DNA of 64,000 nucleotides, taken from NCBI GenBank assembly GCA_016787345.1, contig JAEUUU010000176.1:1-64000 (forward strand). Reading direction: 5' to 3'. Of this stretch, positions 17,990 through 38,648 are shown piece by piece. Numbering within the stretch: position 1 is the first letter of the stretch; every line of letters begins with the position of its first letter. Both the position numbers and the translations under genes were made by a program. Under the pieces are notes generated by a model. That model ran no database searches, was not told the origin of the DNA, and was given only the letters and a program-made list of their open reading frames with translations. The DNA comes from Saprospiraceae bacterium. GTDB lineage: Bacteria; Bacteroidota; Bacteroidia; Chitinophagales; Saprospiraceae.

Positions 17990-18164
17990 CTGTAGCGCCG
18001 ACCTCCAGGTCGGCGAGTCTGAGAGCAGAAACAACCCGCAATTACACTGTATGCGTGGAGCGATTCCGGTTGATTCCCGATACGAACTATGGCTGGTAAT
18101 CGCGGGTAACTACTGATCGTTGCATCGCCGACCTGGAGGTCGGCGCTACAGGTCGGCGCTACAG
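17990..18164. repeat. 162-bp composite palindromic element, copy 1 (plus 13-bp end duplication)
   Basis: The core 17990-18151 has perfect 27-bp terminal inverted repeats starting CTGTAG and built on the palindrome CGCCGACCTCCAGGTCGGCG. The inner arms (ACCCGCAATTAC and GTAATCGCGGGT) also pair. The interior carries GAGAGCAGAAACAACCC. A partial duplicate of the right end (GGTCGGCGCTACAG) extends to 18164. The htrA-like gene's TAG stop (18161-18159 on the minus strand) is inside this duplicate. Confidence 0.93.
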
Positions 18165-19187
18165 CGCGCCCGGCGTCACGTCCAGACTTTTCAAGGCCCC
18201 ATCCCGAATCACCCAAATCCGGAGCGTTCGACCGATCGTGCGCTCATCCAGCGCTTTATGCAAGGCGTCGATCGAATCGATCGGCCGGCCTTCAAACTGG
18301 ACGATCACGTCGCCGGCGCGCAAACCGGAATTTCCGGCCGGTCCATCGGGTTCGACGCTTTGCACCTGGATGCCGCCCGTCGTTTGCAATTGCAGTGCAT
18401 TCAGCCATTTGGGGGGCAAAGGCACGGTTTGGGCGCCGATACCAAGGTAACCGCGACGAACACGGCCTTCGAGGATCAGCTTGCCCACGACAAACTCGGC
18501 GAGATTGGAAGCCACTGCAAAACAAATCCCCTGTGCCGGCAGGATCACGGCGGTATTGACCCCGATCACTTCGCCGAAGGAATTGACCAGCGGACCGCCG
18601 GAATTGCCCGGATTGAGCGCTGCGTCGGTCTGGATAACATCGTCGATGAGGCGCCCCGTTTGTGTACGGAGTGTACGGCCCAGCGCGCTGACGACCCCGG
18701 CGGTGACGGAGTATTGAAAGCCGTAGGGATTGCCGATGGCAATGGCAATCTGGCCGACTTTAAGCCGGTCGCTGGCGCCAAAGCCCACCGTGGCGAGGTT
18801 GTCGGCGTCGATTTTTACCACGGCCAGGTCGGTCGCCGGATCATCGCCCACGATACGGGCCTGGAAACTCCGGCCGTCGGGCAAACTGGCTTCGATACGC
18901 TCGGCGCCGTTGACGACGTGGCTGTTGGTGACCACGTAACCGTCGGAACTGATAACGAAACCGGAACCGGAACCCTCGCCCTGCCCGTTGCGGGGCGGCG
19001 CCGGCCGGCGCCCCGCAGGTGTCTGTTTTTGAACTTTAAGATGAACGACAGCAGCGCTTACGCGCTCGGTGACGTCCACAACGGTTTGAGAATACGCATC
19101 GAGCAATTGTGCGTCGGAAAAAGAAGAGGTCGGGCGGGATGATCGGGATTCACCCGCAGCGCCTTCAGAGGCGAGAAATTGATACAT
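18159..19187 (-). CDS. HtrA/DegP-like trypsin-type serine protease with PDZ domain
   Basis: The 342-residue S1C protease has the complete triad: His90 in VVTNSHVV, Asp120 in ATDLAVVK and Ser196 in NPGNSGGPL. One C-terminal PDZ domain (about 240-335) contains GYLGIG and GLRAGDVIVQFEGRP. Family members degrade or chaperone misfolded proteins in the periplasm. Unusually, no signal peptide or membrane anchor precedes the catalytic domain; the N-terminus is hydrophilic and Ser-rich. Either the protein is cytoplasmic or the true start is different. Its stop lies in a repeat element. It is divergent from porX. Confidence 0.93.
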   Translation of the reverse strand: MYQFLASEGAAGESRSSRPTSSFSDAQLLDAYSQTVVDVTERVSAAVVHLKVQKQTPAGRRPAPPRNGQGEGSGSGFVISSDGYVVTNSHVVNGAERIEASLPDGRSFQARIVGDDPATDLAVVKIDADNLATVGFGASDRLKVGQIAIAIGNPYGFQYSVTAGVVSALGRTLRTQTGRLIDDVIQTDAALNPGNSGGPLVNSFGEVIGVNTAVILPAQGICFAVASNLAEFVVGKLILEGRVRRGYLGIGAQTVPLPPKWLNALQLQTTGGIQVQSVEPDGPAGNSGLRAGDVIVQFEGRPIDSIDALHKALDERTIGRTLRIWVIRDGALKSLDVTPGAL

Positions 19188-19390
19188 AAACAGGAAACGA
19201 TGTGGGTAGCGGGTATTCCGGCAGCCTCATGGCGAGAATTATGCCAGATCAAAAGCACCCGCCATTTTGGCAGCAAAGCCCTGTTCTGTCCTCGTTTTTC
19301 CCGGTCCGGGTGTTTTTTTAACAGAAGCCATAACTTCGCCCCAGCTTTCGCGTTACACCTTTTCAACATCCCGAACAGACATTTTTCCCA

Positions 19391-20950
19391 ATGGATAAAA
19401 TCAAAATACTCTGGGCCGACGATGAAATCGATCTGCTCAAACCACACCTGATGTTCCTGCAAGCCAAAGGCTACGAAGTCATTACCGCCAGCAATGGCCA
19501 CGACGCCCTCGAATCCTATGATGAAGCGGCGGGCGAAATTGACGTCGTGTTTCTCGACGAATCCATGCCGGGCCTCACCGGTCTCGAAGTATTACCCCGC
19601 CTGAAAGAGCGAAACGCCAATATTCCGGTGGTCATGATCACCAAAAACGAGGCGGAACACGTGATGGAAGAAGCCATCGGCTCCCAGATTTCCGACTACC
19701 TGATCAAACCCGTCAACCCCAACCAAATCCTGCTGACCCTCAAGAAAATCATCGACAACAAGCGACTCGTGCGCGAAAAAACGACGATGGACTACCAGCA
19801 GGAATTCCGCCAAATCTACATGCAGGTCACTGGCGGGCTCAACCACGAAGAATGGGTCGATGCCTACCGCCGCATCATCAACTGGGAACTCCGCCTCGAT
19901 GCCAACCACGCCGAAGTGGGCGACATTTTGGCACAACAAAAAGAACAGGCCAATACCGAGTTCAGCAAATTCGTGGTCAAAAACTATTTCGATTGGGTAG
20001 ACCGCAACAAGGAAGTCGGCCCCATTATGTCGCACTCCATGATGCGCAAACGCATCTTCCCGCATATTGGCAACGGCACACCAACCATCGTGGTGCTGCT
20101 CGACAACCTGCGCTACGACCAGTGGAAAGTGATAGAACCCATCCTGCACGACCTGTTCCGCACCGAACAGGAAGATTATTTCTACAGCATCCTGCCCACG
20201 GCCACTCAATACAGCCGCAACGCCATCTTCGCCGGCATGATGCCCGACGATATCGCCGCCAATTTCCCCGACAAGTGGAAAAACGACAACGACGAGGGTG
20301 GTAAAAACCTGAACGAAGACTTTTTCCTGGGCAAACAGATCGAACGCGCCTTCCGCAAACCGATCAAATGGGACTACATGAAAGTCACCAACGTCAACCA
20401 CGGCAAAGAACTCACCGACAATATCCTCAACTACCTGAACAACGACATCACCGTGGTGGTGTACAACTTTATCGATATGCTCTCCCATGCCCGCACGGAG
20501 ATGGAAGTGCTCAAGGAACTGGCCGGCGACGAACGCGCCTATCGCTCGCTCACCCGCTCCTGGTTCCTGCACTCGCCGCTCTGGGCTGCACTGCAACGCC
20601 TCGAAGGCCGCGACGTACAACTTTTTGTGACCACCGACCACGGCACTATCCGCGTACAAACGCCCTCCAAAGTGGTGGGCGACCGCGAAACCACCACCAA
20701 CCTGCGTTATAAAGTGGGCCGCAACCTCCAGTTCGATCCAAAAGACGTTTTGGTTGTTCGCGAACCCAAACAGGCCGGACTGCCCAGACCGAACGTGAGC
20801 TCAACTTTCATTTTTGCCAAAGAGGACTTTTTCTTCCTCTATCCGAACAACTATAATCACTATCACAATTATTATAAAAACACCTTCCAGCACGGAGGCA
20901 TTTCACTGGAGGAAATGATCTGCCCGGTGATTCGGATGCGGACGAAGTAG
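19391..20950 (+). CDS. porX: PorX: response regulator with PglZ domain, type IX secretion regulator
   Basis: The 519-residue protein has an N-terminal receiver (DDE at 10-12, phosphoacceptor Asp56 in VVFLDESMP, Lys in YLIKPVNP), a helical linker, and a PglZ/alkaline-phosphatase-like domain (IVVLLDNLRYDQW, ATQYSRNAIFAGM, TTDHGTIRV). This architecture is that of PorX, the response regulator that with PorY controls T9SS genes and gliding/secretion in Bacteroidota; its PglZ domain has oligonucleotide phosphodiesterase activity in studied homologues. No porY is adjacent. A TAACTTCG sequence at 19331-19338 could be a weak -7 box. The stop is 5 bp from a composite repeat element. Confidence 0.94.
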   Translation: MDKIKILWADDEIDLLKPHLMFLQAKGYEVITASNGHDALESYDEAAGEIDVVFLDESMPGLTGLEVLPRLKERNANIPVVMITKNEAEHVMEEAIGSQISDYLIKPVNPNQILLTLKKIIDNKRLVREKTTMDYQQEFRQIYMQVTGGLNHEEWVDAYRRIINWELRLDANHAEVGDILAQQKEQANTEFSKFVVKNYFDWVDRNKEVGPIMSHSMMRKRIFPHIGNGTPTIVVLLDNLRYDQWKVIEPILHDLFRTEQEDYFYSILPTATQYSRNAIFAGMMPDDIAANFPDKWKNDNDEGGKNLNEDFFLGKQIERAFRKPIKWDYMKVTNVNHGKELTDNILNYLNNDITVVVYNFIDMLSHARTEMEVLKELAGDERAYRSLTRSWFLHSPLWAALQRLEGRDVQLFVTTDHGTIRVQTPSKVVGDRETTTNLRYKVGRNLQFDPKDVLVVREPKQAGLPRPNVSSTFIFAKEDFFFLYPNNYNHYHNYYKNTFQHGGISLEEMICPVIRMRTK

Positions 20951-20955
20951 CGCTG

Positions 20956-21130
20956 CTGTAGCGCCGACCTCCAGGTCGGCGATGCAACGATCAGTAGTTA
21001 CCCGCGATTATCAGCCAATGCTCGTATCGGGAATCAACCAGAAACGGCCCTCGCATTCAGGGTAATCGCGGGTTATTTCTGCGCTCAGCATCGCCGACCT
21101 GGAGGTCGGCGCTACAGGTCGGCGCTACAG
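20956..21130. repeat. 162-bp composite palindromic element, copy 2, interior inverted relative to copy 1
   Basis: The core 20956-21117 has the same 27-bp terminal inverted repeats as copies 1 and 3. Its interior aligns with copy 1 only after reverse complementing. The same 13-bp end duplication extends to 21130. It fills the space between convergent porX and tolC-like genes. The tolC-like TAG stop (21127-21125 on the minus strand) is inside the duplicated end; the porX TAG is in a degenerate TAGCGC just outside the core. Confidence 0.93.
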
Positions 21131-22432
21131 CGTCTTCTCGTAATTCAATCGCGCCACCAAATACGCATACACGGCATTCAGATAGTTATTCTCCGCCGTT
21201 TGCAAGGCAAACTCGCTGTTTTTCAGATCCGTTTGTTTGAGCACACTCTGCTCGAAACGCAGTTGGTCGGTGGATAACAATTGGCGGGCGAGCGCCACAT
21301 TTTTCAAACTTTCCTGCACATCCAGGCGGGCTTGTTCCATGGCGCTGGCCTGCGCTGTGGCTTCAAAATTGAAGTTCGCCCGCAAGCGATCGAGGTTGTA
21401 CCGGTTCATCTCCTGCCGCAAAGCAAATTCGCGGGCGCCGAGGCGGGCCTGACGGCCGTCGAAAATGGGTACGCTGGCTTTTACGCCGATAAAACTATAC
21501 GGGAACCAGGTGTCGGCAGCAACAGGATTGAAGGTTTCACTGAGTTGCAACAAGGTGTAGTTGCCATAAGCCGACACCGTCGGCAAACGCCGGGCCAGCT
21601 GTTTTTCCCGATTGAGGGCATTGAGGCGCAGCGCAATGTTTTCCGACAATATTTCGGGGCGCTGTTCAATACGATTGACCAGTAAAACCGTGTCGGTCAA
21701 CAAGGCGGCGACGTTTTCCGACAATTGCAGCGAACCGTCGGGCGCAGTGCCCATTTGGTATTGCAAACGTTTGACACTCAGCGCATAATCCTGCTCCGCT
21801 TTTTTGAGCGACAATTGCGCGTTGCTGACGTCGAGCGCGAGGCGGTCGACGTCGTTCGGCAAGGCAGCGCCGGCCTGCAACTGGTTTTCCGCGGTGCGCA
21901 GGTTGAGCTGGGCGCGATCGAGCGCCTGGCGCGCCAGTTCGCGTTTTTCGCGGTTGAATACGGCGGCGTAGTAGGCCTCGGTAATGGCAAAACGAATGTC
22001 GCGCGTTTCCTGCGACAGCGCAATCTGCCGGCTTTCCACCTGCGCTGCGTTGATCTGCCGGTCGATGCGGCGGTTGGCGTCGTAGATTTTCTGCTCGGCC
22101 TGCACGCCCAGCGCATTGTTGAACGGCACGCCGATCTGTATTTCCTGTGTGGCATCGGATGGCACACCCGGCAGTCCGAACTGGCCGATGGGCAATACGC
22201 TGGTTTGCAATTCGGTGTTCCAGCGCAGATCGGCCGATGCGCTCAGCTGGGGCAGCCACTGAGCCCGCAATTTGTCCTTTTCACCCTCCGCGATACGAAG
22301 CTGCACCTCCTGCGCTTTTAATTCCGGCCGGTTGCGCAAGCCCTGTGCGATCGCCTCATCGAGCGTGGTCGTTTGTGCGAAGGTTGCTGCCGATAAAACA
22401 GACAACAGCAGGACTGAAATAGAACGAAGCAT
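21125..22432 (-). CDS. TolC-family outer membrane efflux protein
   Basis: The 435-residue protein begins with a signal peptide (ISVLLLSVLSAATFAQ) and shows two outer-membrane efflux protein repeats with long coiled-coil helices (for example the 100-200 and 310-420 regions, rich in Ala, Gln, Leu, Arg). It would form the trimeric exit duct. It is the last gene of the ATPase-HlyD-permease-TolC operon; the gap to the permease gene is 35 bp. The final CTG TAG belongs to the repeat element downstream. Confidence 0.93.
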   Translation of the reverse strand: MLRSISVLLLSVLSAATFAQTTTLDEAIAQGLRNRPELKAQEVQLRIAEGEKDKLRAQWLPQLSASADLRWNTELQTSVLPIGQFGLPGVPSDATQEIQIGVPFNNALGVQAEQKIYDANRRIDRQINAAQVESRQIALSQETRDIRFAITEAYYAAVFNREKRELARQALDRAQLNLRTAENQLQAGAALPNDVDRLALDVSNAQLSLKKAEQDYALSVKRLQYQMGTAPDGSLQLSENVAALLTDTVLLVNRIEQRPEILSENIALRLNALNREKQLARRLPTVSAYGNYTLLQLSETFNPVAADTWFPYSFIGVKASVPIFDGRQARLGAREFALRQEMNRYNLDRLRANFNFEATAQASAMEQARLDVQESLKNVALARQLLSTDQLRFEQSVLKQTDLKNSEFALQTAENNYLNAVYAYLVARLNYEKTL

Positions 22433-22467
22433 AGTATTGGATAAATTTTTCTGTAAAACAAACTGCC

Positions 22468-23592
22468 TTACCCGCGGAACACCTGCGCGGGCTCCAGTGA
22501 ATTGATCCGGCGAATGGCGAACAAACTGCCACCCAGCGCGATAAACAAAGTGAGCAAAAAGAAGCCGATCTGCATGTCGACGGGAAACTCGAAGATGGTA
22601 CCCGCATTGGCTACCCCAAGCCGAAAACCTTCCACCAGCGCGCGGCCAAGCAAAAAGCCGACCAGCGAGATGAGAAACGCCTGGGTCAGAATAAGCCGGG
22701 TGATGTAGCCGTTGGTAGCGCCGATGGCTTTCAGCGTGCCGTAGTCTTTGATGCGGTCGATAGCCGCTGAATAGAGCGTGAGACCAATGATGATAAAACC
22801 CGATAGAACCGCGAAGATGATCAGCGAGCCCACCGACAAGGCGATGCCGCTCGAACCGAGCACCTTCGTGACGGTCGAATTGGCCAGTGCCTGCGCATCC
22901 CAGGCGCGCACGACGGGGAAGGTTGCGTTGATCTCGGCAATGACCCGGTTCGGATCGACACCGGGTTTTGATTTGACCAAAAACAAACTGGCCTTGTCGG
23001 TCGGATAATTGCCCAGCGCCCGCGCCCTTTCAATAGTCGTAAACACATAGGGCGCCCCGCCGAAACCGCGCACCCCGCGCGTAAAACCGGCGTTGTACAC
23101 CTTGTTTCCGTTGAGTTCGAAATACTCGCCGATAGCCACCCCGCCGTAGGTTTTTTGGTCAAAAAACTCGGTAATGATGGCGCCCTCGGGGATCATGTCC
23201 ACCTTCCGCGCCGAATCGATGCCCCAGGGTCCGCCTACAAAATCGGGCGCCTGCGAGCCGATGATGGTCATGCCCGCCGTAGTGCCGTCGGCAAATTGCG
23301 CGGCGCCGGCAGCAATCACGACCGGGTACACCTGATCGACGGAGGGCAAGCTGGCCATCTCGCGACCGAGGCGCATGTCGAGGCGGGCCAGTTGGTTGGC
23401 GTTGTCGGTTTTGGAGTCCACCACCCAGATGTAGCCGGCGTTGTTGGCCACCAGGCTTTTCATGGCATTGGTCAAAAAGATAAAAATACCCGCCTGCTGC
23501 CCCACCAGAAAGATAGAAATGACCACCCCGGCCAGGGCGCCGATCGACTTGGGTTTGTCGTAGCGGATAAACTGTATGGCTGTTTTGAACAT
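22468..23592 (-). CDS. DevC/MacB-type ABC transporter permease
   Basis: The 374-residue protein has an N-terminal helix (about 15-40), a periplasmic domain (about 45-260) and three C-terminal helices, with the FtsX-like IKDYGTLKAIGATNGYI motif and a terminal NSLEPAQVFRG. The length and lack of a fused ATPase resemble DevC of the DevBCA exporter. It lies 12 bp after the HlyD-like gene and completes a tripartite efflux pump with the neighbouring ATPase and TolC. Substrate unknown. Confidence 0.92.
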   Translation of the reverse strand: MFKTAIQFIRYDKPKSIGALAGVVISIFLVGQQAGIFIFLTNAMKSLVANNAGYIWVVDSKTDNANQLARLDMRLGREMASLPSVDQVYPVVIAAGAAQFADGTTAGMTIIGSQAPDFVGGPWGIDSARKVDMIPEGAIITEFFDQKTYGGVAIGEYFELNGNKVYNAGFTRGVRGFGGAPYVFTTIERARALGNYPTDKASLFLVKSKPGVDPNRVIAEINATFPVVRAWDAQALANSTVTKVLGSSGIALSVGSLIIFAVLSGFIIIGLTLYSAAIDRIKDYGTLKAIGATNGYITRLILTQAFLISLVGFLLGRALVEGFRLGVANAGTIFEFPVDMQIGFFLLTLFIALGGSLFAIRRINSLEPAQVFRG

Positions 23593-23604
23593 GGCAAAGG
23601 CGGC

Positions 23605-24552
23605 TTATTGATCAACGGTGATGACGCATTCGACCCGCGCGCCGAGCAGCACTTTGGAGGGGTCGTCGAGTTGCACGCGCACTTCGCGCACGCGGCGGTC
23701 TTCGAGGTCGCCCACCTTGTCGGCAAACAGGGATTTTTTACGCAAATAAGGCGAAGCCAGCACGACTGTGCCGGTGGTCAGCACCTCCTTGCTGCCCTGG
23801 GGCCGGATGGCGGCTTTCTGGCCCACTTTGACCTTGGCAGCAAACATTTCATCAATTTCCGTGAGGGCAATGGTCGGTCCTTCGGGCGCGAATTCGCCGA
23901 ACCCGGTTTTGTTGTCGAGGTACTGCCCCACCCTGGCGTCGAGTGAAAGTACGGTGCCGTTGGCGGGTGCGCGCACGATCTTGTTGTCGGCCAGAGTGCG
24001 GTAATAATCGACGTCGGAGCCGAGCTCGCCGAGGCGGGTTTGTTGCTGGCGCAGGCCGGCTTCCTGGGCGCGTATCTGCTGGTCGAGTTCGGTCAGCACG
24101 GCGCGGGTGTTGTCGAGTTGCTGGCGGGTGATGGCATTGCCTTTGAACAGCGCTTCGTCGCGGTCGAGGTCGGCTTTGGCCTTGTCGCGCTGCACCTGAA
24201 GCAGTTTGAGGTTTTCGCGGGCGAGGGCAACGGCGTCATTCTGGGTAGCGATTTTGGCATTGGCCTGGGCGACCTGGGCGGATTCCACGTCGGCGGCGAG
24301 CACGACGAGCGTCTGGCCTTTTTTGACCGCGTCGCCGGTTTTGGCCTTCACCTCACGGATGTAGCCGCTTTGTTCGGCGGCCAGAGTGACGATGCGTTCG
24401 CTGGGCTCGATGATGGCGATGCCCAACACCTCGCGCACCTGCACGGCCTGCGCCAGCGAGTCGGGCGAGGGCGCGGCGGCGGGCGGCGTTTCTTTTTTGC
24501 CGCAGGAAGCCAGGAGCAGCAGCAAGGGAAGAAAGAAGATCAGATTTTTCAT
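23605..24552 (-). CDS. HlyD/RND-type periplasmic adaptor lipoprotein
   Basis: This 315-residue protein begins with a lipoprotein signal peptide (FFLPLLLLLASCGKKE). A biotinyl-lipoyl-like half domain (SGYIREVKAKTGDAVKKGQTL) is followed by a coiled-coil hairpin (about 85-190), the second lipoyl half (VRAPANGTVLSLDARVGQYL) and a beta-barrel domain. It would link the inner-membrane permease to TolC. Confidence 0.93.
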   Translation of the reverse strand: MKNLIFFLPLLLLLASCGKKETPPAAAPSPDSLAQAVQVREVLGIAIIEPSERIVTLAAEQSGYIREVKAKTGDAVKKGQTLVVLAADVESAQVAQANAKIATQNDAVALARENLKLLQVQRDKAKADLDRDEALFKGNAITRQQLDNTRAVLTELDQQIRAQEAGLRQQQTRLGELGSDVDYYRTLADNKIVRAPANGTVLSLDARVGQYLDNKTGFGEFAPEGPTIALTEIDEMFAAKVKVGQKAAIRPQGSKEVLTTGTVVLASPYLRKKSLFADKVGDLEDRRVREVRVQLDDPSKVLLGARVECVITVDQ

Positions 24553-24584
24553 ATTGCGAAGCAGGAAAATGACATCAGAAACGG

Positions 24585-25262
24585 TTAAAAATCAGTGATT
24601 TCGGTAGCGAATCCGTTTTCCACCGAAATGACGCGGTGGGCGTAGGGTTTGAGACGCGGGTCGTGGGTGACCACGGCGACCGACTTGCCTTCGTCGGCCA
24701 GCGCGCGCAATTCCTGCATGACGATGCCCATCGAATCCTTGTCGAGCGAAGCCGTGGGCTCGTCGCAGAGGATGAGTTTGGGGTCGGTCACCAGGGCGCG
24801 GGCGATGGCGATGCGCTGTTGCTGGCCGCCGGAGAGCTGGCGGGGCAGGTTTTTGCGGCGGTCTGTCATGCCAACCATGTCGAGGGCCGAGGCGACGCGT
24901 TTTTTGAGTTCGGCGCCCCGGATGCCCTGCAGTCGAAGGGGCATGGCCACGTTGTCTTCGGCGCTGAGCGGGGCCAGCAGGTTGAAACTTTGAAAAACGA
25001 ACCCGATGGTATGGAGGCGCAGGCGGGCCAGGGCGCGTTCTTTCATGTGGTTGATGTGGTTGCCGTCGACCCAGAGATCGCCCGCCGTGGGATAGATCAC
25101 GCAGCCGAGCAGGGAAAGCAGGGTGGTTTTGCCGCTGCCGGAGGGACCGATGATGAGTGTCAGTTCGCCTTCATTGAATTGCAGGGTAGTCGGCTGCAGC
25201 GCGACGATGGTCTGGTCGCCCGTCTGGTATTCCTTTCCGGCATTTTTGAGTTCAGCGATCAT
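24585..25262 (-). CDS. ABC transporter ATP-binding protein (LolD/MacB/DevA type)
   Basis: The 225-residue ATPase has Walker A GPSGSGKT (39-46), Q-loop region [10 protein letters not shown], signature [15 protein letters not shown], Walker [13 protein letters not shown] and the H-loop VVTHDPRL. It is the first gene of the efflux operon and energises the permease at 22468-23592. Its start is about 100 bp from the palindromic operator shared with the divergent MarR gene. Confidence 0.95.
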
Positions 25263-25360
25263 GGTGGATGATTTGTCGCAATTTATTATGCTTTCAAACT
25301 ATTTTTAGAAAAATTGGTTTTAAATCATCGTAAATATTTTTAAAAAAAGATATTTTTTTT

Positions 25361-25390
25361 CAAAATTACTACGAAATCGTAGTTAATTTG
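25361..25390. promoter_or_regulatory. Palindromic operator between efflux operon and marR-like gene
   Basis: The 30-bp dyad has half-sites CAAAATTACTACGA and TCGTAGTTAATTTG around AA; the inner ACTACGA/TCGTAGT is perfect. On the minus strand TAATTTTG (25368-25361) fits the -7 box TANNTTTG, and on the plus strand TTAATTTG is close to it. A regulator bound here could shut off both directions. This is the expected position for a MarR autoregulatory site. Confidence 0.65.
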
Positions 25391-25411
25391 CATTGCGGCA
25401 ATTAAAAAGAT

Positions 25412-26035
25412 ATGAAAAACAAACTGGTGGAGCTCGTCAATCTGTGGGCTGAATACGAGGAAGCGCAGCCCGAGCCCGGCATCGAGGGCTTTTGTCGCTG
25501 GGTGCTGGCCCGGGAAGAAGCCGCGCAGCCCCGCGAGGCGGTCATGGCCGGGGTTCCGGTCGATGGCCGGATCGGCCGTTTGATCGGCAAACTGGGGCGT
25601 TACGCCGGCATTTATTCCAAAAAAGCCTTTGCCGGGCTGCCGCTCAACAATTTTGAAGACCTGGGTTACCTCTGGCAGGTGGAGTACATGGGCGAGCCGA
25701 AAAAAAGCGAGCTCATCTACGCCATGCTCTCCGAATTCCCCTCCGGTGTGGACGTCATCAAACGCCTCATGAGCCTGGGCCTGCTGGAGGAATTCCCCGA
25801 TGCGCACGACAAACGCTCCAAACGCGTGCGCCTCACGCCCGCCGGCCGCGCCTTGGCCCACGACAGTCGCCCCCTCGCCGGCCGCGTCGCCAATGCCGTG
25901 GTGGCCGACCTCTCCGCCGCCGACAAAACCGTGCTGCTGGACCTGCTCGAACACCTGTCGGCCTACCACGACGAGCGCTACAAGGCCGTGCGGGGCGCGG
26001 AGGACTGGGGGGAGGTGGAACGGGGGTTGAAGTAG
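25412..26035 (+). CDS. MarR-family transcriptional regulator
   Basis: The 207-residue protein has a winged helix-turn-helix: LSEFPSGVDVIKRLMSLGLLEEFPDAHDKRSKRVRLTPAGRAL includes the recognition helix and the D-x-R wing typical of MarR. The N-terminal helical part is longer than the usual 140-150-residue family members. It is divergent from the efflux operon with a dyad in between, so it probably represses both itself and the pump, responding to an exported ligand. Confidence 0.88.
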   Translation: MKNKLVELVNLWAEYEEAQPEPGIEGFCRWVLAREEAAQPREAVMAGVPVDGRIGRLIGKLGRYAGIYSKKAFAGLPLNNFEDLGYLWQVEYMGEPKKSELIYAMLSEFPSGVDVIKRLMSLGLLEEFPDAHDKRSKRVRLTPAGRALAHDSRPLAGRVANAVVADLSAADKTVLLDLLEHLSAYHDERYKAVRGAEDWGEVERGLK

Positions 26036-26056: not shown

Positions 26057-26071
26057 TTCAAAATACAATCT

Positions 26072-29948: not shown

Positions 29949-29957
29949 CATTCACCC

Positions 29958-30842
29958 ATGCTTATCCGCCACTTCTGGGACAAATTCTGGGAAAAAACGC
30001 TGGCCGCGTTAGCGCTGGTCGCCGTATTGACCCTGGGCGGAATTTTTTTGCTGTTGCTGACCAACAGCTGGAAAGCGTTTTCCCACATATCCTTGTCCGA
30101 ATTTTTCTCGGCAGCGGCCTGGAATCCGGCTGCGTATGAAACGCCGACTTTTGGCATCGGGGCCATGCTGTGGAGTACCTTGCTGGTCACCCTCGGCGCC
30201 ATGGCCATTGGCGTGCCGCTCGGGTTGGGCACGGCCGCTTTTATGTCGGAACTCGCCCCCGCCCGCCTGCGCAACCTGCTGAAACCCGCCGTGGAAATGC
30301 TCGCCGCCGTGCCATCGGTGGTTATCGGCTTTTTGGGCATAGTGCTGGTGGGGCCTTTTTTAGCGCGTGTATTCCATCTGCCCAACGGCCTGAATGCCCT
30401 GAACGGCGCTATTTTGCTCGCCGTCATGTCGCTGCCCACGCTGGTGAGCATCGCCGAAGACGCCATTCATGCCGTACCGAAGGCGTACAAAGAGGCCAGT
30501 TATGCCCTTGGCGCCACCCGTTGGGAGACCCTGCTGAGGGTTACCCTGCCCTCGTGCCGTTCGGGACTGATCGCCGCCATCATGCTGGGCATGGGGCGGG
30601 CCATCGGCGAAACGATGACCGTGCTCATGGCCACGGGCAATGCCACGGCCATGCCGAACGGCTTTTTCGATCCGGTGCGCACGCTCACGGCTACCGTGGC
30701 CATTGAAATGGGAGAAACGCCACAGGGCACGACCCATTTTTACGCGCTCTTTGCCTGCGCGCTGACGCTGTTTGTCATCACCCTGCTCATCAATGTCGCT
30801 GCAGAACGGCTGGCGGCATCCTATCGCAAAAAAGGACAATGA
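29958..30842 (+). CDS. pstC: Phosphate ABC transporter permease PstC
   Basis: The 294-residue permease has six predicted helices and the BPD-transport EAA loop (EASYALGATRWETLLRVTLP). AVPSVVIGFLGIVLVGP is characteristic of PstC, as is the GMGRAIGETMTVLMATGNA segment. The stop overlaps the pstA start (ATGA). Confidence 0.95.
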   Translation: MLIRHFWDKFWEKTLAALALVAVLTLGGIFLLLLTNSWKAFSHISLSEFFSAAAWNPAAYETPTFGIGAMLWSTLLVTLGAMAIGVPLGLGTAAFMSELAPARLRNLLKPAVEMLAAVPSVVIGFLGIVLVGPFLARVFHLPNGLNALNGAILLAVMSLPTLVSIAEDAIHAVPKAYKEASYALGATRWETLLRVTLPSCRSGLIAAIMLGMGRAIGETMTVLMATGNATAMPNGFFDPVRTLTATVAIEMGETPQGTTHFYALFACALTLFVITLLINVAAERLAASYRKKGQ

Positions 30843-31684
30843 ACCGCCATTTCATTCAAACCCTCGGACACGCCTCCATGGTCGCCTGCGCCGCCGCGGT
30901 GGTCGCATTTTTGGGACTGATCCTGTTCGAACTGGTGGGTCAGGGCAGCACGGTATTGTCCTGGGAGTTTTTGAGCGCTTTTCCGCGAAAAGGCATGACC
31001 GAAGGGGGCATTTTTCCAGCCGTCTTCGGCACGACGCTGGTGACGCTCGTGTCCACCCTTTTTGCCGCGCCGCTGGGCATTGCCTGTGCAATTTATCTGC
31101 AGGAATACGCGGCCGACAACTTTTTCACCCGGCTGGTGCGGGCGTCGATCCGCAACCTGGCCGGGGTGCCTAGTATCGTGTACGGGCTTTTTGGGCTGGC
31201 CCTGTTTGTGCAGGGGATGGGCCTGGGCGCTTCGGTGCTGACTTCCGGCCTCACCCTGGCCCTGCTCACCCTGCCCTCCGTGATCACCACCACCGAGGAG
31301 GCGCTGCGCAATGTGCCACGGCTCACCCGCGAGGGCGCGCTGGCGCTCGGCGCCACCAAGTGGGAGACGATTTATACGGTGGTGCTGCCTTCGGCCGTCC
31401 CGGGTATCCTGACGGGCGTCATCCTGGCGCTTTCACGGGCGGCGGGCGAAACCGCCCCGATCCTTTTTACCGGCGTGGCTTTTTATACCCGTTACCTGCC
31501 CGGCTCGCCCTTCGATGAATTTATGGCCCTGCCCTACCACCTCTACATCCTGTCGACCCAGCACCACGCCATAGCGGAAGTGCGGCCACTGGCCTACGGC
31601 ACGGCATTGGTGCTGCTGCTGCTGGTGTTGCTGCTCAACATGATGGCGTTCGTGGTACGCGCCCGATACCGCCGGAGCGCATGA
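30839..31684 (+). CDS. pstA: Phosphate ABC transporter permease PstA
   Basis: The 281-residue second permease starts in a 4-bp overlap with pstC, implying translational coupling. The EAA motif EGALALGATKWETIYTVVLP and the PstA-type AGVPSIVYGLFGLALFVQ and SRAAGETAPILFTG are present. It forms the channel heterodimer with PstC. The ATPase gene pstB is separated by three unrelated genes. Confidence 0.95.
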   Translation: MNRHFIQTLGHASMVACAAAVVAFLGLILFELVGQGSTVLSWEFLSAFPRKGMTEGGIFPAVFGTTLVTLVSTLFAAPLGIACAIYLQEYAADNFFTRLVRASIRNLAGVPSIVYGLFGLALFVQGMGLGASVLTSGLTLALLTLPSVITTTEEALRNVPRLTREGALALGATKWETIYTVVLPSAVPGILTGVILALSRAAGETAPILFTGVAFYTRYLPGSPFDEFMALPYHLYILSTQHHAIAEVRPLAYGTALVLLLLVLLLNMMAFVVRARYRRSA

Positions 31685-31778
31685 TTTTGACAAAAATCGC
31701 CGCTTGTATTGCTCAAAATCAGCTCGATAAATGCTGCGCCCCAGGACCTTTGAAGACACGACCATAACCTATCGTATC

Positions 31779-32402
31779 ATGGAAAAACTTGACCTGAAAA
31801 AACAACTCGCCTCCCTCTACAACCAACCCGCCGGCCGTATCAGCATCGTGGACGTGCCCGCGGCGCAGTTTCTGATGATCGACGGTGAGGGCAACCCGAA
31901 TAACTCGCAATCCTTTGCGGAGGCCGTGGAGGCTTTGTTCGGGCTTTCCTACACCCTCAAATTTATGGTTAAAAAAGGCGCAAACCCGATCGATTACAGC
32001 GTCATGCCCCTTGAAGGACTATGGTGGACCGACGACATGAACCATTTCTCCATGGACGACAAAGACAGCTGGAAATGGACGCTCATGATCCGCCAACCCG
32101 ATTTCATCACCCCCGAGATGGTGCGCGAAGCGACGGCTCAACTGGACAAGAAAAAAGGCGCCGAACTCCCGGCGCTGCGGCAGATTCGGTTTGAAAGCAT
32201 GACCGAGGGCGCCTGCGCCCAGATCCTGCACACCGGTCCATACAGTGCCGAGCCGCCGACCATTCAGAAACTGCACGATTTTATCCATGAAAACGGATAT
32301 GCACTGCACGGCAAACACCGCGAAATCTACCTCAGCGATGCCCGCCGGACGGCGCCGGAAAAAATGAAAACAATCATCCGCCAACCCGTTCGAAAAATCT
32401 GA
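31779..32402 (+). CDS. GyrI-like small-molecule-binding domain protein
   Basis: The 207-residue protein starts at MEKLDLKKQLASLY (31779). It has the GyrI/SOUL-like duplicated fold: VDVPAAQFLMIDGEGNPN, FGLSYTLKFMVKK, YSVMPLEGLWW, TEGACAQILHTGPYSAEPPTIQKL and HREIYLSDARRTAPEKMKTI. Close relatives are stand-alone, annotated as GyrI-like proteins, some binding or hydrolysing cyclopropane-containing or other xenobiotic compounds. No DNA-binding domain is attached. The frame extends upstream to 31731, but the shorter start fits the family. Confidence 0.87.
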   Translation: MEKLDLKKQLASLYNQPAGRISIVDVPAAQFLMIDGEGNPNNSQSFAEAVEALFGLSYTLKFMVKKGANPIDYSVMPLEGLWWTDDMNHFSMDDKDSWKWTLMIRQPDFITPEMVREATAQLDKKKGAELPALRQIRFESMTEGACAQILHTGPYSAEPPTIQKLHDFIHENGYALHGKHREIYLSDARRTAPEKMKTIIRQPVRKI

Positions 32403-32411
32403 TTATCGGCC

Positions 32412-33227
32412 ATGACCACCGCACTGCTTCGTTTTTTTCTGCTGGCGTACGCCCTCTCCTGGCTCATCTGGGCGCCGCTCTGGCTGCCGGCGCTGGGCAT
32501 AGAGGGCCTGCCGGTTTTGCCTTTTCACCATGCGTTGGGCGGTTTCGGGCCCATGCTCGCCGCGCTGTGGTGCAGCCGGCGGGAGAACGGCCGGGAGGGT
32601 TTGGCAGCCTTGTTGCGCGCCATGTTCGCTTTAAGACCGGTTTTGTGGCTGGCAGTCGCATTTTTCAGTCCCTTCGTACTCAATGTATTTGCCGCGTTCC
32701 TGCACCAGTTGATCAGCGGCGAGCTCGTCGACTGGAATGGCTGGGGCAGAAGCCGGGAGTTTCCGGAGTTGGGGTTTGCCGGTTTTTTCGCCTACAACCT
32801 CCTGTTTTTCGGCTGGGGTGAAGAGACGGGCTGGCGCGGGTTTGCATTGCCTCGTTTGCAGCAGCGATACAGTGCAGGCACGGCAGCCCTCGTTCTGACG
32901 GTCTTTTGGGCGCTCTGGCACTGGCCGTTGTTTTTGTACCGGCCCGGCTACACGGAAATGGATGCCGGCGGAATATTCGGCTGGGTATTCAGTCTGGCGA
33001 CCGGCAGTATTTTACTCAGTTGGTTGTTCAACAGCGCCCGGGGCAGCGTGCTGGTGTGCGCGGTGTTCCACGCCACGATCGACATTGCATTTACCTCCGA
33101 TGTCGTACAGAAGGAAATGATGCAATACACGGGTCTGCTGATTACCCTTTGGGGCATCGCCACCCTGTTGATATTTGGTTGGAAAAATCTGGCGCCCGTA
33201 GCGCGAACGACCAAACTTTTTCCCTGA
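32412..33227 (+). CDS. CPBP-family intramembrane metalloprotease (Abi/CAAX-like)
   Basis: The 271-residue membrane protein has about seven helices and the three CPBP motifs: EETGWRG (the EExxxR glutamates), WALWHWPLFLY (His) and FHATIDIAF (His, Asn/Asp-like position). It probably binds zinc in the membrane. Family roles include prenyl-protein processing and bacteriocin self-immunity; here the substrate is not evident. It begins 9 bp after the GyrI-like gene, so they may be co-transcribed. Confidence 0.9.
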   Translation: MTTALLRFFLLAYALSWLIWAPLWLPALGIEGLPVLPFHHALGGFGPMLAALWCSRRENGREGLAALLRAMFALRPVLWLAVAFFSPFVLNVFAAFLHQLISGELVDWNGWGRSREFPELGFAGFFAYNLLFFGWGEETGWRGFALPRLQQRYSAGTAALVLTVFWALWHWPLFLYRPGYTEMDAGGIFGWVFSLATGSILLSWLFNSARGSVLVCAVFHATIDIAFTSDVVQKEMMQYTGLLITLWGIATLLIFGWKNLAPVARTTKLFP

Positions 33228-33303
33228 AAACCGCATCCTGAAAGCCTGTTTTTTGTTGTAAAAACCGGCCTGGAACTGCACCAATCTCCACGCCCGTTGT
33301 CCG

Positions 33304-33507
33304 ATGAAATTACACCTCCGCTTGTTGATCTTTTTTGCCGCCTTGCTGCTGCTGACGGCGCTCGGCCTCAATCAAAACGACTTCATGTTCTGGTCGGGCT
33401 TTTTGATCCCGATCTTTATCGTCTGGCATGTAATTATCGTGTTACGCGATCCCGGCGACAACAAACAAAAGCCGGAATTTAACGACCGTTGGTACGAAAA
33501 CCCCTGA
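33304..33507 (+). CDS. Small two-helix membrane protein
   Basis: This 67-residue protein has two hydrophobic helices ([15 protein letters not shown] and [19 protein letters not shown]) and a charged C-terminal tail ending NDRWYENP. The pstB ATG begins 2 bp after its stop, so the two are translated together. I do not recognise the family; coupling to pstB may point to a role at the transporter, but this is not established. Confidence 0.7.
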
Positions 33508-33509
33508 TT

Positions 33510-34271
33510 ATGCACCACAACTACAAAATGCGCATCCGGAACCTGGATCTCCACTTCGGTTCCAAACACGTGTTAAAAAACGTTTCGCTCGACATTCCAC
33601 CCAACAAGATCGTGGCGCTGATCGGGCCCTCCGGCTGTGGCAAAAGCACCCTGCTGCGCTGCCTCAACCGCATGCACGACCTCAACCCGGATGCGCGCAT
33701 AAAAGGCGAAATCCTGCTCGACGGGCACAATATCCTGCACGGCAACACCAACCCCGTAGGCGTGCGCCGCAAAGTGGGTATGGTGTTTCAAAAACCCAAC
33801 CCCTTTCCCAAATCGGTGTTTGACAACGTAGCCTACGGCCTGGAAATCAACGGCCTGAACGACCGTCATAAAATGGCGGCGCGTGTCGAAGAAAGTCTGC
33901 GCGGCAGCTACCTCTGGGACGAAGTCAGCGACGATCTTCACCGTTCGGCGCTCGATCTTTCGGGCGGGCAGCAGCAGCGTCTGTGTATTGCCCGCGCCAT
34001 CGCCGTGGCGCCCGAAGTGGTGCTGATGGACGAGCCCTGTTCGGCCCTCGACCCGATCAGCACAGCCCGCATTGAAGCGCTGATGCTGGAACTGAAAAAA
34101 GATTTTACCATCGTAATCGTGACCCACAATATGCAGCAGGCGCAGCGGGTAGCCGATTACACGGCATTTATGTACCTCGGCGAGCTCATCGAATTCGGCG
34201 AAACCCGGCAGGTGTTCGAATCACCGAGGGAAGATCTGACGCGGGAGTACGTCAAGGGGCATTTCGGGTAA
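33510..34271 (+). CDS. pstB: Phosphate ABC transporter ATP-binding protein PstB
   Basis: The 253-residue ATPase has Walker [10 protein letters not shown], the PstB-specific [31 protein letters not shown], signature [15 protein letters not shown], Walker [14 protein letters not shown] and [25 protein letters not shown]. It energises PstCA. No phoU follows, although phoU normally ends the operon. The ATG at 33510 is chosen for its coupling with the preceding gene and for family length. Confidence 0.95.
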
Positions 34272-34288
34272 CCCCCCTCGGGAGGCCC

Positions 34289-34879
34289 CTATTGCAAAGG
34301 GCCGCCCCCGCCTACTATTTCCACTTTCCAGCCTGCGCCTTCGCCCATAAAGCGAATAAGATCAAGCATTTGGCCAGCCTGGGTGCGCGCCGCTTCGAGC
34401 AGTCCGCTGCGCTGCGCTTCGTCGCGTATGAGGTCTTTGGCTTTTTGGTTGATGCGGTTGTAGTCCTCAGGAGAGAAGTCAGTAAAAATGCCCTCCGAAA
34501 TATCGTAGTAATCCAGCGTGTGGTCGATGCTCAGAATTTGCGGCTCGGGCAGTGGCCCGATGCGCAGCGTACGGGTGAGCGAATCGGCCTCCACGCGCAG
34601 GTTGTTGAGGTCGTAGCCGGCCGATACCGTGGCACGAACGCGCACCAGCGCTTTTTTATCCCAGAAAAATGTGAAGTAGCCCTGGTATTCGCTGTAGTTG
34701 TAAATTTCGGAAAACTGGCCCTCCACCGTGGTCAGTTTCAGCACCGGGCGGATTTTTTCCAGCAACACCGTGGCGTTTTCGACCGGGCGGGCCGAGGGTT
34801 TGAGGTAGCGGTACATCAGCCAGCCGCCGAGGGCGAAGGCTACGATCAGGAGCAGAATTTGGACAATGCGGTTCGACAT
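34289..34879 (-). CDS. DUF4230 family membrane-anchored protein
   Basis: Starting at MSNRIVQILLLIVAFALGG (34879) gives 196 residues with one N-terminal helix and a DUF4230-type domain (VLLEKIRPVLKLTTVEGQFSEIYNY, YFTFFWDKKALVRVRATVSAGYDLNNL, FSPEDYNRINQKAKD). The function of the family is unknown. It is convergent with pstB and divergent from the CapA-like gene. Confidence 0.85.
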   Translation of the reverse strand: MSNRIVQILLLIVAFALGGWLMYRYLKPSARPVENATVLLEKIRPVLKLTTVEGQFSEIYNYSEYQGYFTFFWDKKALVRVRATVSAGYDLNNLRVEADSLTRTLRIGPLPEPQILSIDHTLDYYDISEGIFTDFSPEDYNRINQKAKDLIRDEAQRSGLLEAARTQAGQMLDLIRFMGEGAGWKVEIVGGGGPLQ

Positions 34880-34964
34880 GCGGACAAAGGGTTTGGGCGG
34901 GTGATCGGTTGGGCCGCCAAAGTTGGCGACATTTGGCCGTTCTTTGCACAAAATATCGACCGCC

Positions 34965-36077
34965 ATGTTCCGCAAAACCCGGTTTTTCACCCTTCTTCTT
35001 TTGTTCATTGCCGCCGCCGTGCCGGCGCAGCCCGATACGCTTCGCCTGATTTTCGCCGGCGACATCATGGGCCATTCGCCCCAGATCAAAAGCGCCGAAA
35101 CCGCCCCGGGGAAGTACGACTACACCCCCTGCTTCCGGTACGTCAAACCCGTGCTGAGCAAAGCCGACCTTGCCATCGGCAACCTCGAACTCACCCTGCC
35201 CGGCAAGCCGCCCTACACCGGCTACCCCATGTTTCGCAGCCCCAATGCGCTGGCGCCGGCGCTCAAAGACGCGGGATTCGACATCCTCGTCACGGCCAAC
35301 AACCACTCCAACGACAGCCGCGGACAGGGCGTCGCAAATACCATCGAGGTATTGCAGCAGCAGGGATTTTTACAAACCGGAACCTTTAAAAACCAACGCG
35401 AACGCGGCGCGCTTTACCCGCTTATGGTGTACAAAGACGGGTTCAAACTCGCATTTCTGAATTATACCTACGGCACCAACGGCGTGCCGACCGAAGCGCC
35501 CACAATCGTCAACCTCATCGATACCGTCCAGATCAAAGCCGACCTTGCCGAAGCCCGTGCACGGCAGCCCGATTGTATCATCGTCGTCATGCACTGGGGC
35601 CTTGAATACCAGCTCGCCGAAAATGCCGAACAACGCGCCCTCGCCCGCCTGCTCATCGCACACGGCGCCGACATGGTCATCGGGGCGCACCCGCACGTGG
35701 TGCAACCCATCAAAAAAGAGAGCGCCACAGCGCCCGACGGTACGCGGCGCGAGGCGGTTGTGGTGTATTCCATGGGCAATTTTATCTCCAACCAGCAACA
35801 GGCCAACACCGATATCGGCATCCTTTTTCAGGTGGAAATTGTCAAAAACAAAGGCGTGAGCAAAGCCCGGGTAGGGCGCTACGGCTATATCCCCGTCTGG
35901 CGATATATCCACAAGGCCGCCAATGGCAAAAGCACCTACTTTGCCCTGCCGGTCAGTCGGGTGGAACAAAACGCCGATCTGCTGCCCGGCATGCCGGCCG
36001 CCTCCCGTTCGGTTATGATCAAATCTGCCGAAACCGTACGCAAACGCCTTGCGGGTGTGCCCGAGATTAAACCCTGA
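34965..36077 (+). CDS. CapA-family metallophosphatase-like protein
   Basis: The start at 34965 gives 370 residues with a signal peptide (FFTLLLLFIAAAVPAQ). CapA/PgsA motifs are FAGDIMGHSPQI, AIGNLELTL, VTANNHSNDSRGQG, VVMHWGLEYQ, GAHPHVVQP and YSMGNFISNQQ, which make the di-metal site of the calcineurin-like fold. CapA homologues take part in poly-gamma-glutamate capsule synthesis, but many Bacteroidota members occur without the other cap genes, as here, so the role is uncertain. A GTTCTTTG sequence before the start resembles a -7 box. Confidence 0.9.
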   Translation: MFRKTRFFTLLLLFIAAAVPAQPDTLRLIFAGDIMGHSPQIKSAETAPGKYDYTPCFRYVKPVLSKADLAIGNLELTLPGKPPYTGYPMFRSPNALAPALKDAGFDILVTANNHSNDSRGQGVANTIEVLQQQGFLQTGTFKNQRERGALYPLMVYKDGFKLAFLNYTYGTNGVPTEAPTIVNLIDTVQIKADLAEARARQPDCIIVVMHWGLEYQLAENAEQRALARLLIAHGADMVIGAHPHVVQPIKKESATAPDGTRREAVVVYSMGNFISNQQQANTDIGILFQVEIVKNKGVSKARVGRYGYIPVWRYIHKAANGKSTYFALPVSRVEQNADLLPGMPAASRSVMIKSAETVRKRLAGVPEIKP

Positions 36078-36135
36078 ACGGGAACAAAAATTTATACAGA
36101 GAAAAAGGCTGTTTTTATTTCCGGAAATATCGTAT

Positions 36136-36143
36136 TACCTTCG
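36136..36143 (+). promoter_or_regulatory. Possible rpsA promoter (TACCTTCG)
   Basis: TACCTTCG is one base from TANNTTTG and has TTTA about 18 nt upstream, leaving a leader of about 95 nt before rpsA. The ATG is preceded by a T-rich sequence and no Shine-Dalgarno, as is typical of Bacteroidota ribosomal protein genes. Confidence 0.35.
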
Positions 36144-36243
36144 CGGCCGCTTTTGAAAAAAGCACGGACAACGGCCTCGTCCGCGAAGTGGAGCCGAACA
36201 TGGTCAAACCTGACAAAAGCCTCAAAATCAACCTGTTTTTATT

Positions 36244-38370
36244 ATGTTACTGGACGACGAAAAAGAACCCCGGGAAGAGCAGGAAAACTCCGAGCCCACT
36301 CCCGAAGAAACACCCGCCGCCGAAGAAGTAAGCAACGAAGCAGAAACTGTTGAAGCCCCCGCGGCCGAAGAAACAGTGGTTGCCGAAGCCGAAATGCCTG
36401 CAGAAGAGCCTGCAGTGGTAGCAGAACCTGAACCGGCCGAAGAACCCGCAGTAGCGGCAGAGCCTGAACCGGCTGAAGAGCCCGTAGTGGTAGCAGAAGC
36501 AAAGCCGGAAGAAAAGCCGGTCGTTGCAGAAGCCGAAGCCACCGAAGAAGAAGAGGAGGAAGAAATCGAACTCCCCATTTTCGAAACCCCGGCCCCCGGC
36601 GGCGCACACGACGACTTCAACTGGAAGATGGACAAACGCGGCGCCATTGCCTACACGGACCTCGAGCGCTCCGAATTGCTCAAATCTTACGACAAAACCC
36701 TCAGCTCGGTGGTTGAAAACGAGGTGATCCGCGGCAAAGTCTCCGCTATCAGCGGCGGCGACGTGGTGCTCGACATCAACTACAAAAGCGACGGTTTGAT
36801 TCCGCTCAACGAATTCCGCGATACGCCCGACCTCAAACAAGGCGACGAAGTGGAAGTGTACGTGGAAAGCCAGGAAGACAGCCAGGGCCAACTCGGCCTG
36901 TCGCGCAAAAAAGCCAAGATCCTGCGCGCCTGGGAAAGCATCGTGGATTCGTTCAAAAACGGCACGATCATCCGCGGTACTGTTATCAGCAAAACCAAAG
37001 GCGGCCTGATCGTCGACTGCGGTGGTCTGGAGACCTTCCTCCCGGGCTCGCAAATCGACATCAAACCCGTGATCGACTACGACCAGTATGTCGGCAAAGT
37101 CATGGAATTCAAGGTCGTTAAAGTCAACGAGCAAATCAAAAACGCCGTTGTCAGCCACAAAGCCCTCATCGAGAGCGATCTGGCCGAACAACGCGAGCAA
37201 ATCCTCCAGAGCCTCGAAAAAGGCCAGGTACTCGAAGGTATCGTCAAGAACATCACCGATTTCGGTGCGTTCCTCGATCTCGGCGGCGTCGACGGTCTGC
37301 TCTACATCACCGACATCTCCTGGGGCCGCATCGGTCACCCGAGCGAAGTACTGCAACTCAACCAGCGCATCAACGTGGTGGTGCTCGATTTTGACGAGAA
37401 CAAAAAACGTATCTCGCTCGGTCTCAAGCAGCTCACCCCGCACCCCTGGGAAGTACTCTCTGCCGATATCACCGAAGGCGCAACCGTTACCGGCAAAGTG
37501 GTCAACATTGAAGACTACGGCGCATTCGTGGAAATCCAGCCCGGCGTCGAAGGCCTCATCCACATCAGCGAAATTAGCTGGGGCAACCAGAGCATTCCGG
37601 CCAAGGAATTCTTCAAAATGGGCCAGGAAGTCGAAGCCCGCGTCGTTACGATCGACCGCATCGACCGCAAAATGTCGCTCTCGATCAAACAACTGGGCGC
37701 CGACCCCTGGAGCGAAATTGAAGAACGCTTCCCCGTGGGCAGCAAACACTCCGGCACGGTCAAAAACATCACCAACTACGGCATCTTCGTTGAACTTTCC
37801 GAAGGCGTCGGCGGCATGGTGCACATCAGCGACCTGAGCTGGACGAAGCGCTACGCTCACCCGAGCGAGTTCACCAAACCCGGTAGCCAGATTGACGTGA
37901 TGGTGCTCGATATCGACAAGGAAAAACGCCAGATCAGCCTTGGCCACAAGCAAGTGCAGGAAAACCCCTGGGATACGTTCGAAAACCTCTTCCCGGTCAA
38001 TTCCTACCACGAAGCTACCGTGCTCAAGCGCGACGACAAAGGCGCCACCTTCCAGATGCCGCACGGCCTCGAAGCTTTCGCTCCGGCCAAACACATCCGC
38101 AAGGAAGATGGCCAGCCGGTCAACGTAGGCGATACCGTCACGGTGAAAGTGATCGAATTCAACAAAGACGACCGCCGCATCCTCGTGTCGCACACCCGCT
38201 ACCTCGAGGATCTGAAATCCAAGGCCGAAGCCGTTGTTAAAGCGGAACGCGTCAAGGAAGAAGGCGAATCTCAGGCTGCTATCCAGGACGTTCAGAAGAA
38301 AGTCGAGAAAGAAACCCTCGGCGATCTCGCTGCCCTGGCTCAGTTGAAAGAACAGCTGAAAGACGAGTGA
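36244..38370 (+). CDS. rpsA: 30S ribosomal protein S1 with an acidic N-terminal extension
   Basis: The 708-residue protein contains six S1 RNA-binding domains between about 155 and 650 (starts such as [54 protein letters not shown] and [17 protein letters not shown]), preceding a charged tail. The first 115 residues are a low-complexity Glu/Ala/Pro/Val region (repeats of [11 protein letters not shown]) not found in proteobacterial S1. S1 binds mRNA at the small subunit and helps initiation, which matters in a phylum that hardly uses Shine-Dalgarno pairing. A terminator follows. Confidence 0.96.
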
Positions 38371-38421
38371 TCCGGTAAGGCCGACCCTTAAAGTCGGCAA
38401 GCCATCCGGTCAAAATACACG

Positions 38422-38454
38422 ATCCCTCATTCCTTCCGGAATGGGGGATTTTTT
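38422..38454 (+). terminator. Rho-independent terminator of rpsA
   Basis: ATCCCTCATTCC (38422-38433) pairs with GGAATGGGGGAT (38438-38449) around TTCC, with a run of T following to 38454. A smaller stem GCCGAC/GTCGGC lies just after the stop at 38380-38398. Confidence 0.85.
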
Positions 38455-38475
38455 GTGTAGCACCGCAGCACCGAC

Positions 38476-38648
38476 CTGTAGCGCCGACCTCCAGGTCGGC
38501 GAACCTGAGCGCAGAAACAACCCGCGATTACCCTGAATGCGTGGAGCGATTCTGGTTGACTCTTGATACGAACTAGGGCGGGTAATCGCGGGTAACTACT
38601 GATTGTAACATCGCCGACCTGGAGGTCGGCGCTACAGAGGCGCTACAG
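38476..38648. repeat. 162-bp composite palindromic element, copy 3
   Basis: The core 38476-38637 has the 27-bp terminal inverted repeats, the same orientation as copy 1, and a perfect 14-bp inner inverted repeat ACCCGCGATTACCC (38520-38533) with its complement at 38580-38593. An 11-bp partial copy of the end (GCGCTACAG-like) runs to 38648 and contains the kynureninase TAG stop. A further partial end (ACCGACCTGTAG) lies on the left. Confidence 0.93.

Follow-up and report, generated by a model that had tools for sequence, protein, structure and literature searches.

The unit of two inverted repetitive extragenic palindromes (REPs) known from bacterial interspersed mosaic elements (BIMEs) was later named REPIN (PMC6006769), for the REP doublet forming hairpin described by Bertels and Rainey in 2011 (PMC3116915). 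In that paper, excision products begin at one REP and break off within its partner, giving an asymmetric putative intermediate, and the paper leaves open how REP-associated tyrosine transposases (RAYTs, or TnpA_REP) move REPINs and how a symmetric pair arises from an asymmetric intermediate. Cleavage by TnpA_REP takes place at CT in Stenotrophomonas and at both CT and CA in Marinomonas (PMC8266576). The GTAG superfamily of REPs was described by Di Nocera et al. in 2013 (PMC3733652). We analyzed the first 64,000 nucleotides of contig JAEUUU010000176.1 of a Saprospiraceae bacterium (assembly GCA_016787345.1; this whole stretch is called the window), which carries three copies of a 162-bp element. 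The elements are very probably REPINs, nonautonomous units in which two inverted GTAG-type REPs enclose a variable spacer. A single RAYT, encoded on contig C151 (positions 51283-51894), probably mobilizes them in trans.

The elements resemble the REPINs of PMC3116915 in their inverted REPs around a spacer, near-identical tandem clusters, clusters beside a cognate RAYT gene, and an asymmetric unit ending in the second REP. They differ in having a REP sequence of their own and truncated extra feet at most outer ends; their conserved half is long (about 55 nt, with a CCGCGAT box). With the GTAG superfamily they share GTAG at the palindrome end, a location mostly near gene 3′ ends, and the donation of TAG stops. 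In the portion of PMC3733652 used here, GTAG repeats are listed for Proteobacteria, Cyanobacteria, Chloroflexi, and the Planctomycetes-Verrucomicrobia-Chlamydiae group, and Bacteroidetes are listed for CGTC, whereas here a GTAG-type REP is present in a relative of the Saprospiraceae. A literature search, which was not exhaustive, found no paper joining REPINs with Saprospiraceae. The system is a REPIN-RAYT system and belongs to a known kind. An earlier examination of the window, the sequence-only reading, had not recognized the family.

The three cores lie at 17990-18151 (copy 1, plus strand), 20956-21117 (copy 2, minus strand), and 38476-38637 (copy 3, plus strand), and each runs from CTGTAG to CTACAG with its terminal 27 bases forming a perfect inverted repeat. 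The minus-strand match of copy 2 to copy 3, at 88%, shows that the two are one element in reverse orientations. On these points the sequence-only reading was right, while the inner 14-bp inverted repeat that it described is perfect in copy 3 and mismatched in copies 1 and 2. Each element end is a REP, a GTAG foot followed directly by the hairpin CGCCGACCTCCAGGTCGGCG, which has an 8-bp stem and a four-base loop. A search for the hairpin CGCCGACCTNNAGGTCGGCG that allowed up to three mismatches gave six matches in the window, all without mismatch, against 0.03 expected. In copy 1 the REP with a TCCA loop occupies 17992-18015 on the plus strand (counterparts, 20958-20981 and 38478-38501), and the inverted REP occupies 18126-18149 on the minus strand (counterparts, 21092-21115 and 38612-38635). 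The two REPs thus face each other around a spacer, so that a long hairpin is possible. Loops were strand specific across the family, with TCCA in 49/52 forward REPs and TGGA in 66/68 inverted REPs.

The three copies reported earlier are only those of the window. The source genome, a single metagenome-style assembly of 5.28 Mb in 191 contigs, gave 180 BLAST matches to the element and 147 matches to the REP pattern at up to two mismatches, compared with 0 for a reversed control pattern; 110 REPs were exact. Parsing yielded 124 hairpins in 44 arrays, including all 110 exact REPs and 4 hairpins without a foot, and degenerate REP copies are only partly in this set. A scan of 632,252 further bases from contigs C165 to C191 found no hairpins. 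The parsed arrays have 85 outer ends, which include three near-identical-flank pairs (both sides of loci L038/L041, and L010/L037) that were kept in all counts. The equal length noted for the window copies, each 158 bp when counted from GTAG to CTAC, does not extend to the whole family: 33/41 core units measured 152 to 164 bp, and the other 8/41 fell outside this range (96 to 312 bp). The family was confined to this genome. Among 396 genomes of the order, the exact REP was absent from the 395 others; the element had no match at an E value of ≤0.001 in 39 or 40 other relatives' genomes, only the source genome being matched, and was not found in 24 genomes of the same genus. An exact-REP search of viral contigs likewise found none.

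A candidate partner enzyme is encoded in the same genome. The gene on C151 specifies 204 amino acids, is flanked on each side by an array of the same REP, and has clpB-like and rpsF-like neighbors (named by eye from translations). Its product scored 100.4 bits against the NCBIfam REP_Tyr_transpos model NF047646 (cut-off, 80) and 33.2 against the Y1_Tnp model (cut-off, 23), and its sole solved-structure match at an E value of ≤0.001 was 4er8 (9.9e-8), the TnpA_REP of E. coli (PMC6006769). It is single copy, with one match in the genome. Y1_Tnp matches numbered four genome-wide, and the stretches of 3.2 to 3.3 kb examined at the other three loci (L029, L030, and L032) held no such REP and no other GTAG or GTGG hairpin with a perfect stem of at least 7 bp, leaving the C151 gene as the only candidate partner. 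The motifs (NHVH, WQ, and YILNNP) and length of the protein fit those tabulated in PMC6006769 for two candidate TnpA_REP subclasses, 2.4 (Bertels group 4) and 2.7, the former being reported there as abundant in Cyanobacteria and Bacteroidetes; set beside these subclasses, the gene here is flanked by REPs. At L033:1779-2895, which includes an array and the RAYT gene, the foot of the array provides the stop of the adjacent clpB-like gene (CTG TAG), and an extra foot of the same array provides the TAG that closes the 279-codon frame containing the RAYT gene.

In line with the literature, related RAYTs often have a REP of their own. Repeated GTAG or GTGG hairpins were present at 36/89 other RAYT loci, compared with 0 in each of five triplet shuffles and 1/69 other-gene loci; the 89 loci come from two collections, in which a few records may be double and G009 was counted once. 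In named genomes the nearest relative of the RAYT was found at L073, in Saprospiraceae bacterium ACE_BAC3 (59% identity); its coordinates are those of G009, which belongs to the same genus as the source genome of the window. This closest relative is flanked by seven GTGG hairpins that all point in the same direction, mostly at a spacing of 44 to 45 bp and with no inverted pairs (L073:3680-4829; also L054), a different REP grammar inside one genus.

The junctions of the elements were constant. CT directly preceded GTAG at 112/120 feet (80/85 outer and 32/35 inner), which is consistent with single-strand cleavage of the cognate REP at CT by a RAYT. These junctions bear on the possibility that the elements are instead miniature inverted-repeat transposable elements (MITEs) of a DDE-type insertion sequence, mobilized via terminal inverted repeats with target duplication. 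The 27-bp perfect terminal inverted repeats, small size, and many copies would suit such a MITE. However, among the 41 arrays with both ends, direct repeats of 2 to 8 nt flanked at most 2, no more than in permuted pairs (means up to 0.95), so target duplications are lacking; the constant junction is CT before GTAG, the ends are foot-plus-hairpin REPs, head-to-tail REP arrays occur too, and two arrays flank a Y1 transposase gene. A DDE-type MITE is therefore very improbable, although no search was made for a DDE transposase with the same ends. IS200/IS605 elements likewise are not known to produce a target duplication. An IS200/IS605 insertion sequence was rejected as a candidate, because such an element has its own transposase and the 162-bp elements hold no gene. 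The system is like IS200/IS605 (IS608 and ISDra2) in its Y1 HUH family enzyme and in the presumed cutting at a short site, which in those elements is chosen by a guide tetranucleotide (PMC8266576), and unlike it in that the RAYT is single copy and scores 21.6 bits against an IS200 model cut-off of 55.

For REPINs, a route can be proposed from these junctions. The RAYT, as a TnpA_REP and Y1 HUH transposase, would bind the folded single-stranded REP and cut on the 3′ side of CT, immediately ahead of GTAG. The excised unit would span GTAG and the spacer and run into the far hairpin. It would then be attached after a CT at a new place, in many cases within the final codons of a gene, where CTG TAG would form an in-frame stop. 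Polar tandem arrays and truncated feet would arise either by reinsertion beside an existing copy or by slippage between CGCCG repeats.

The arrays bear on the choice between these last two processes. Among the 44 arrays, 17 were simple pairs, 20 were pairs extended on one side (9 ><<, 5 ><<<, 5 >><, and 1 >>><), and 7 were single or irregular. At 28/35 inner junctions GTAG opens the tandem unit, and a cut-short end of the second hairpin (CGCC, up to three bases, and CT) closes it; by analogy, this is the asymmetry of the published putative REPIN excision products. Truncated extra feet, one to three each and forming a ladder, stood at 63/85 outer ends, and 74/81 of them ended in CT and 58/81 were preceded by CT. 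The REPINs may once have been mobile and the tandem arrays and truncated feet have come from slippage or unequal exchange between short CGCCG repeats, with no part played by the RAYT. We regard this as a serious possibility, although not the favored one. Interiors resembled each other more inside an array (mean, 76%; n = 43 pairs) than across arrays (48%; n = 2,585), the CGCC stretch common to the foot and the far hairpin would supply microhomology, and inner and outer truncations agree by eye in some arrays. Against slippage, CT before GTAG is kept at 32 of the 35 inner junctions, and inner and outer truncations disagree by eye in many arrays. Unequal exchange alone predicts that inner tails equal the outer foot of the growing side, which by eye holds in some arrays and fails in many. 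Neither RAYT reinsertion nor unequal exchange is proven as the source of the arrays.

Two contig ends differ by a single unit. The element's two sides align at 92% and 98% between C11:1-1363 (L038) and the start of C177 (L041:1-1524 or so); C11 has one REPIN, and C177 has an additional degenerate unit and one more truncated foot. With each version sitting at the end of a contig, the two could represent strain variation at one site or a duplicated segment; the one-unit difference holds in either case. Slippage would also result in such a one-unit difference.

The truncated feet on the two sides of an array resembled each other. In 41 arrays the edit distance between the two sides was 4.27, compared with 4.95 for permuted sides (P of about 0.003), and identical feet were found on the two sides in 5/22 cases against 1.6 expected (P of about 0.015); a common suffix was not significant (P = 0.075). 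We tentatively raise, as a rather doubtful proposal, that the junctions preserve a fossil trace of the RAYT reaction, in which CT^GTAG cuts would lift an asymmetric unit ending in the second hairpin and the lost half would be rebuilt by copying from the flank. Such copying would account for truncated feet mirrored on both array sides. If it is true, the CT^GTAG rule would be a built-in safe landing, since an insertion in the last codons of a gene reads CTG TAG and would cost only a residue or so. The genome offers a compact record of 110 identical REPs, a fixed CT junction, polar arrays, truncated feet, one candidate enzyme, and empty sites, and the mechanism is testable with one RAYT and one REP. 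At L020:1485-1690, the truncated foot is unusual in measuring 18 nt (GTAGCGCCGACCGCC[G/A]CT); it stands on either side of one pair, and the two versions mirror each other except at one position.

This family, which has multiplied in one environmental bacterium, is a frequent source of the stop codon for the gene that it lies behind. An open reading frame (ORF) of at least 120 codons was aimed at the array and ended no more than 200 nt away, or inside it, at 69/85 outer ends, with none at the other 16/85. Of these 69 ORFs, 32 stopped before the feet, 33 used the TAG of a foot as their stop, and 4 continued beyond an outer foot. Copies are dispersed through the genome and mostly extragenic, and 33/37 long ORFs that reached an array stopped on the TAG of a GTAG foot (the near-identical loci L010 and L037 are counted twice among the 33). 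The outermost foot served as the stop for 30 of the 37 ORFs reaching feet, where one in three was expected (binomial P, 3e-9). Choice of ORF is not the source of this bias, since choosing the longest ORF favors reading past. The codon before the donated stop was CTG in 26/33 cases, and some of the remaining 7 (3 AAG, 3 CAG, and 1 GAG) may be native TAG stops, like that of the PorX-like gene described below. PMC3733652 already states that flanking ORFs frequently take their TAG stop from GTAG REP termini, so that only the counts are new here; they now put numbers on stop-codon donation.

Stops of this kind are found beside all three window copies. The extra sequence adjoining the cores, taken in the sequence-only reading for a partial duplicate of each end, exists but is a truncated extra foot. 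Beside copy 1, a 13-nt foot at 18150-18162 (minus strand, reading GTAGCGCCGACCT) contains TAG at 18159-18161, the stop of a trypsin-like gene (18159-19187). Copy 2 is adjoined on the plus strand by the 11-nt GTAGCGCTGCT at 20947-20957, whose TAG at 20948-20950 is the stop of a PorX-like gene, and on the minus strand by a 13-nt foot at 21116-21128, whose TAG at 21125-21127 is the stop of a TolC-like gene (21125-22432). The 11-nt foot of copy 3, at 38636-38646 on the minus strand, has its TAG at 38643-38645, the stop of a kynureninase-like gene (38643-39902). The four gene names were read from translations, with no family search behind them.

Empty sites were present at copy 1. The trypsin-like gene and the same neighbor occur without the element in 5/17 relatives (G004, G007, G008, G009, and G022); in the other 12/17 the neighbor was not found in the stretch examined. 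The C terminus of the trypsin-like protein is GELK or GELR in 11/17 relatives, and here the protein is one residue shorter and ends in GAL, its CTG|TAG coming from the foot. For copies 2 and 3, the stretches examined in the relatives did not show the neighbor next to the gene compared, and these are gene-end comparisons rather than full empty sites. The kynureninase-like protein at copy 3 ends in QLL, within a tail that is variable among 21 relatives. At copy 2, the PorX-like protein stops at the same residue as in 18/21 relatives and one residue before the other 3. Because most relatives stop at the same residue, the sequence suggests that this stop, and with it the GTAG at 20947-20957, may be native. 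The empty sites at copy 1, the restriction of the exact REP to this genome among the 396, and the position of the RAYT gene between two arrays of the same REP support the earlier proposal of a mobile or recombining BIME-like unit. In other species of the genus, the PorX-like and trypsin-like genes are followed directly by short tandem repeats unrelated to these elements (L176 and L230), for example several CTTGTCATCCCGTAGGGAAC in L176; these gene ends collect different repeats across the genus.

Several points weigh against REPINs mobilized by this RAYT. No transposition event was seen, the support for unit mobility being indirect, from the empty sites and from the family's confinement to this genome, and the evidence comes from one metagenome-style assembly without reads. 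Many truncated feet end in CGCCGCT, and no CT within an intact REP explains them by a simple cut and join. Tandem growth could be slippage without a RAYT, 53/89 related RAYT loci yielded no repeated hairpin family with the detector used, and the arms between the REPs showed no covariation (score, 0.122, versus 0.146 when shuffled).

The covariation test used 29 arm pairs in 33 aligned core units, 8/41 having been dropped for length. Standard pairs made up 76.0% of arm positions compared with 78.2% in shuffles, and all five measures were below the shuffled means. Pairing far exceeded that of a slid control (36.6 to 47.6%), as expected because both arms keep one consensus. The CCGCGAT box is nearly invariant, and its seven pairs, which hold in all or all but one sequence, are uninformative either way because they hardly vary. 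Since the arms do not covary, the conserved subterminal 30 nt look as if they are kept as sequence rather than by pairing, and selection on arm-arm pairing is not claimed.

The folding of whole elements bears on a further explanation, in which selection maintains them at gene ends to terminate transcription or stabilize mRNA rather than their being selfish mobile DNA. Single strands of copies 3 and 1 fold far more stably than shuffles (z = −11.5 and −7.9, respectively), with the REP ends pairing together over 25 bases in the predicted structures, and long ORFs point in from both sides at 28/44 arrays (from one side at 11, from neither at 2, and undefined at 3). Such selection would have to be reconciled with the absence of the element from the 24 same-genus genomes and from behind the three genes compared, the absence of the exact REP from the 395 other genomes, and interiors that vary among copies, and we consider it unlikely as the explanation; a role acquired after insertion may be compatible with a mobile origin.

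The two subterminal arms of a unit tended to differ. In alignment A2 (columns 25-44 and 122-141), 499/500 shuffles paired at least as well as the observed arms, and this divergence looks as if perfect long palindromes were avoided.

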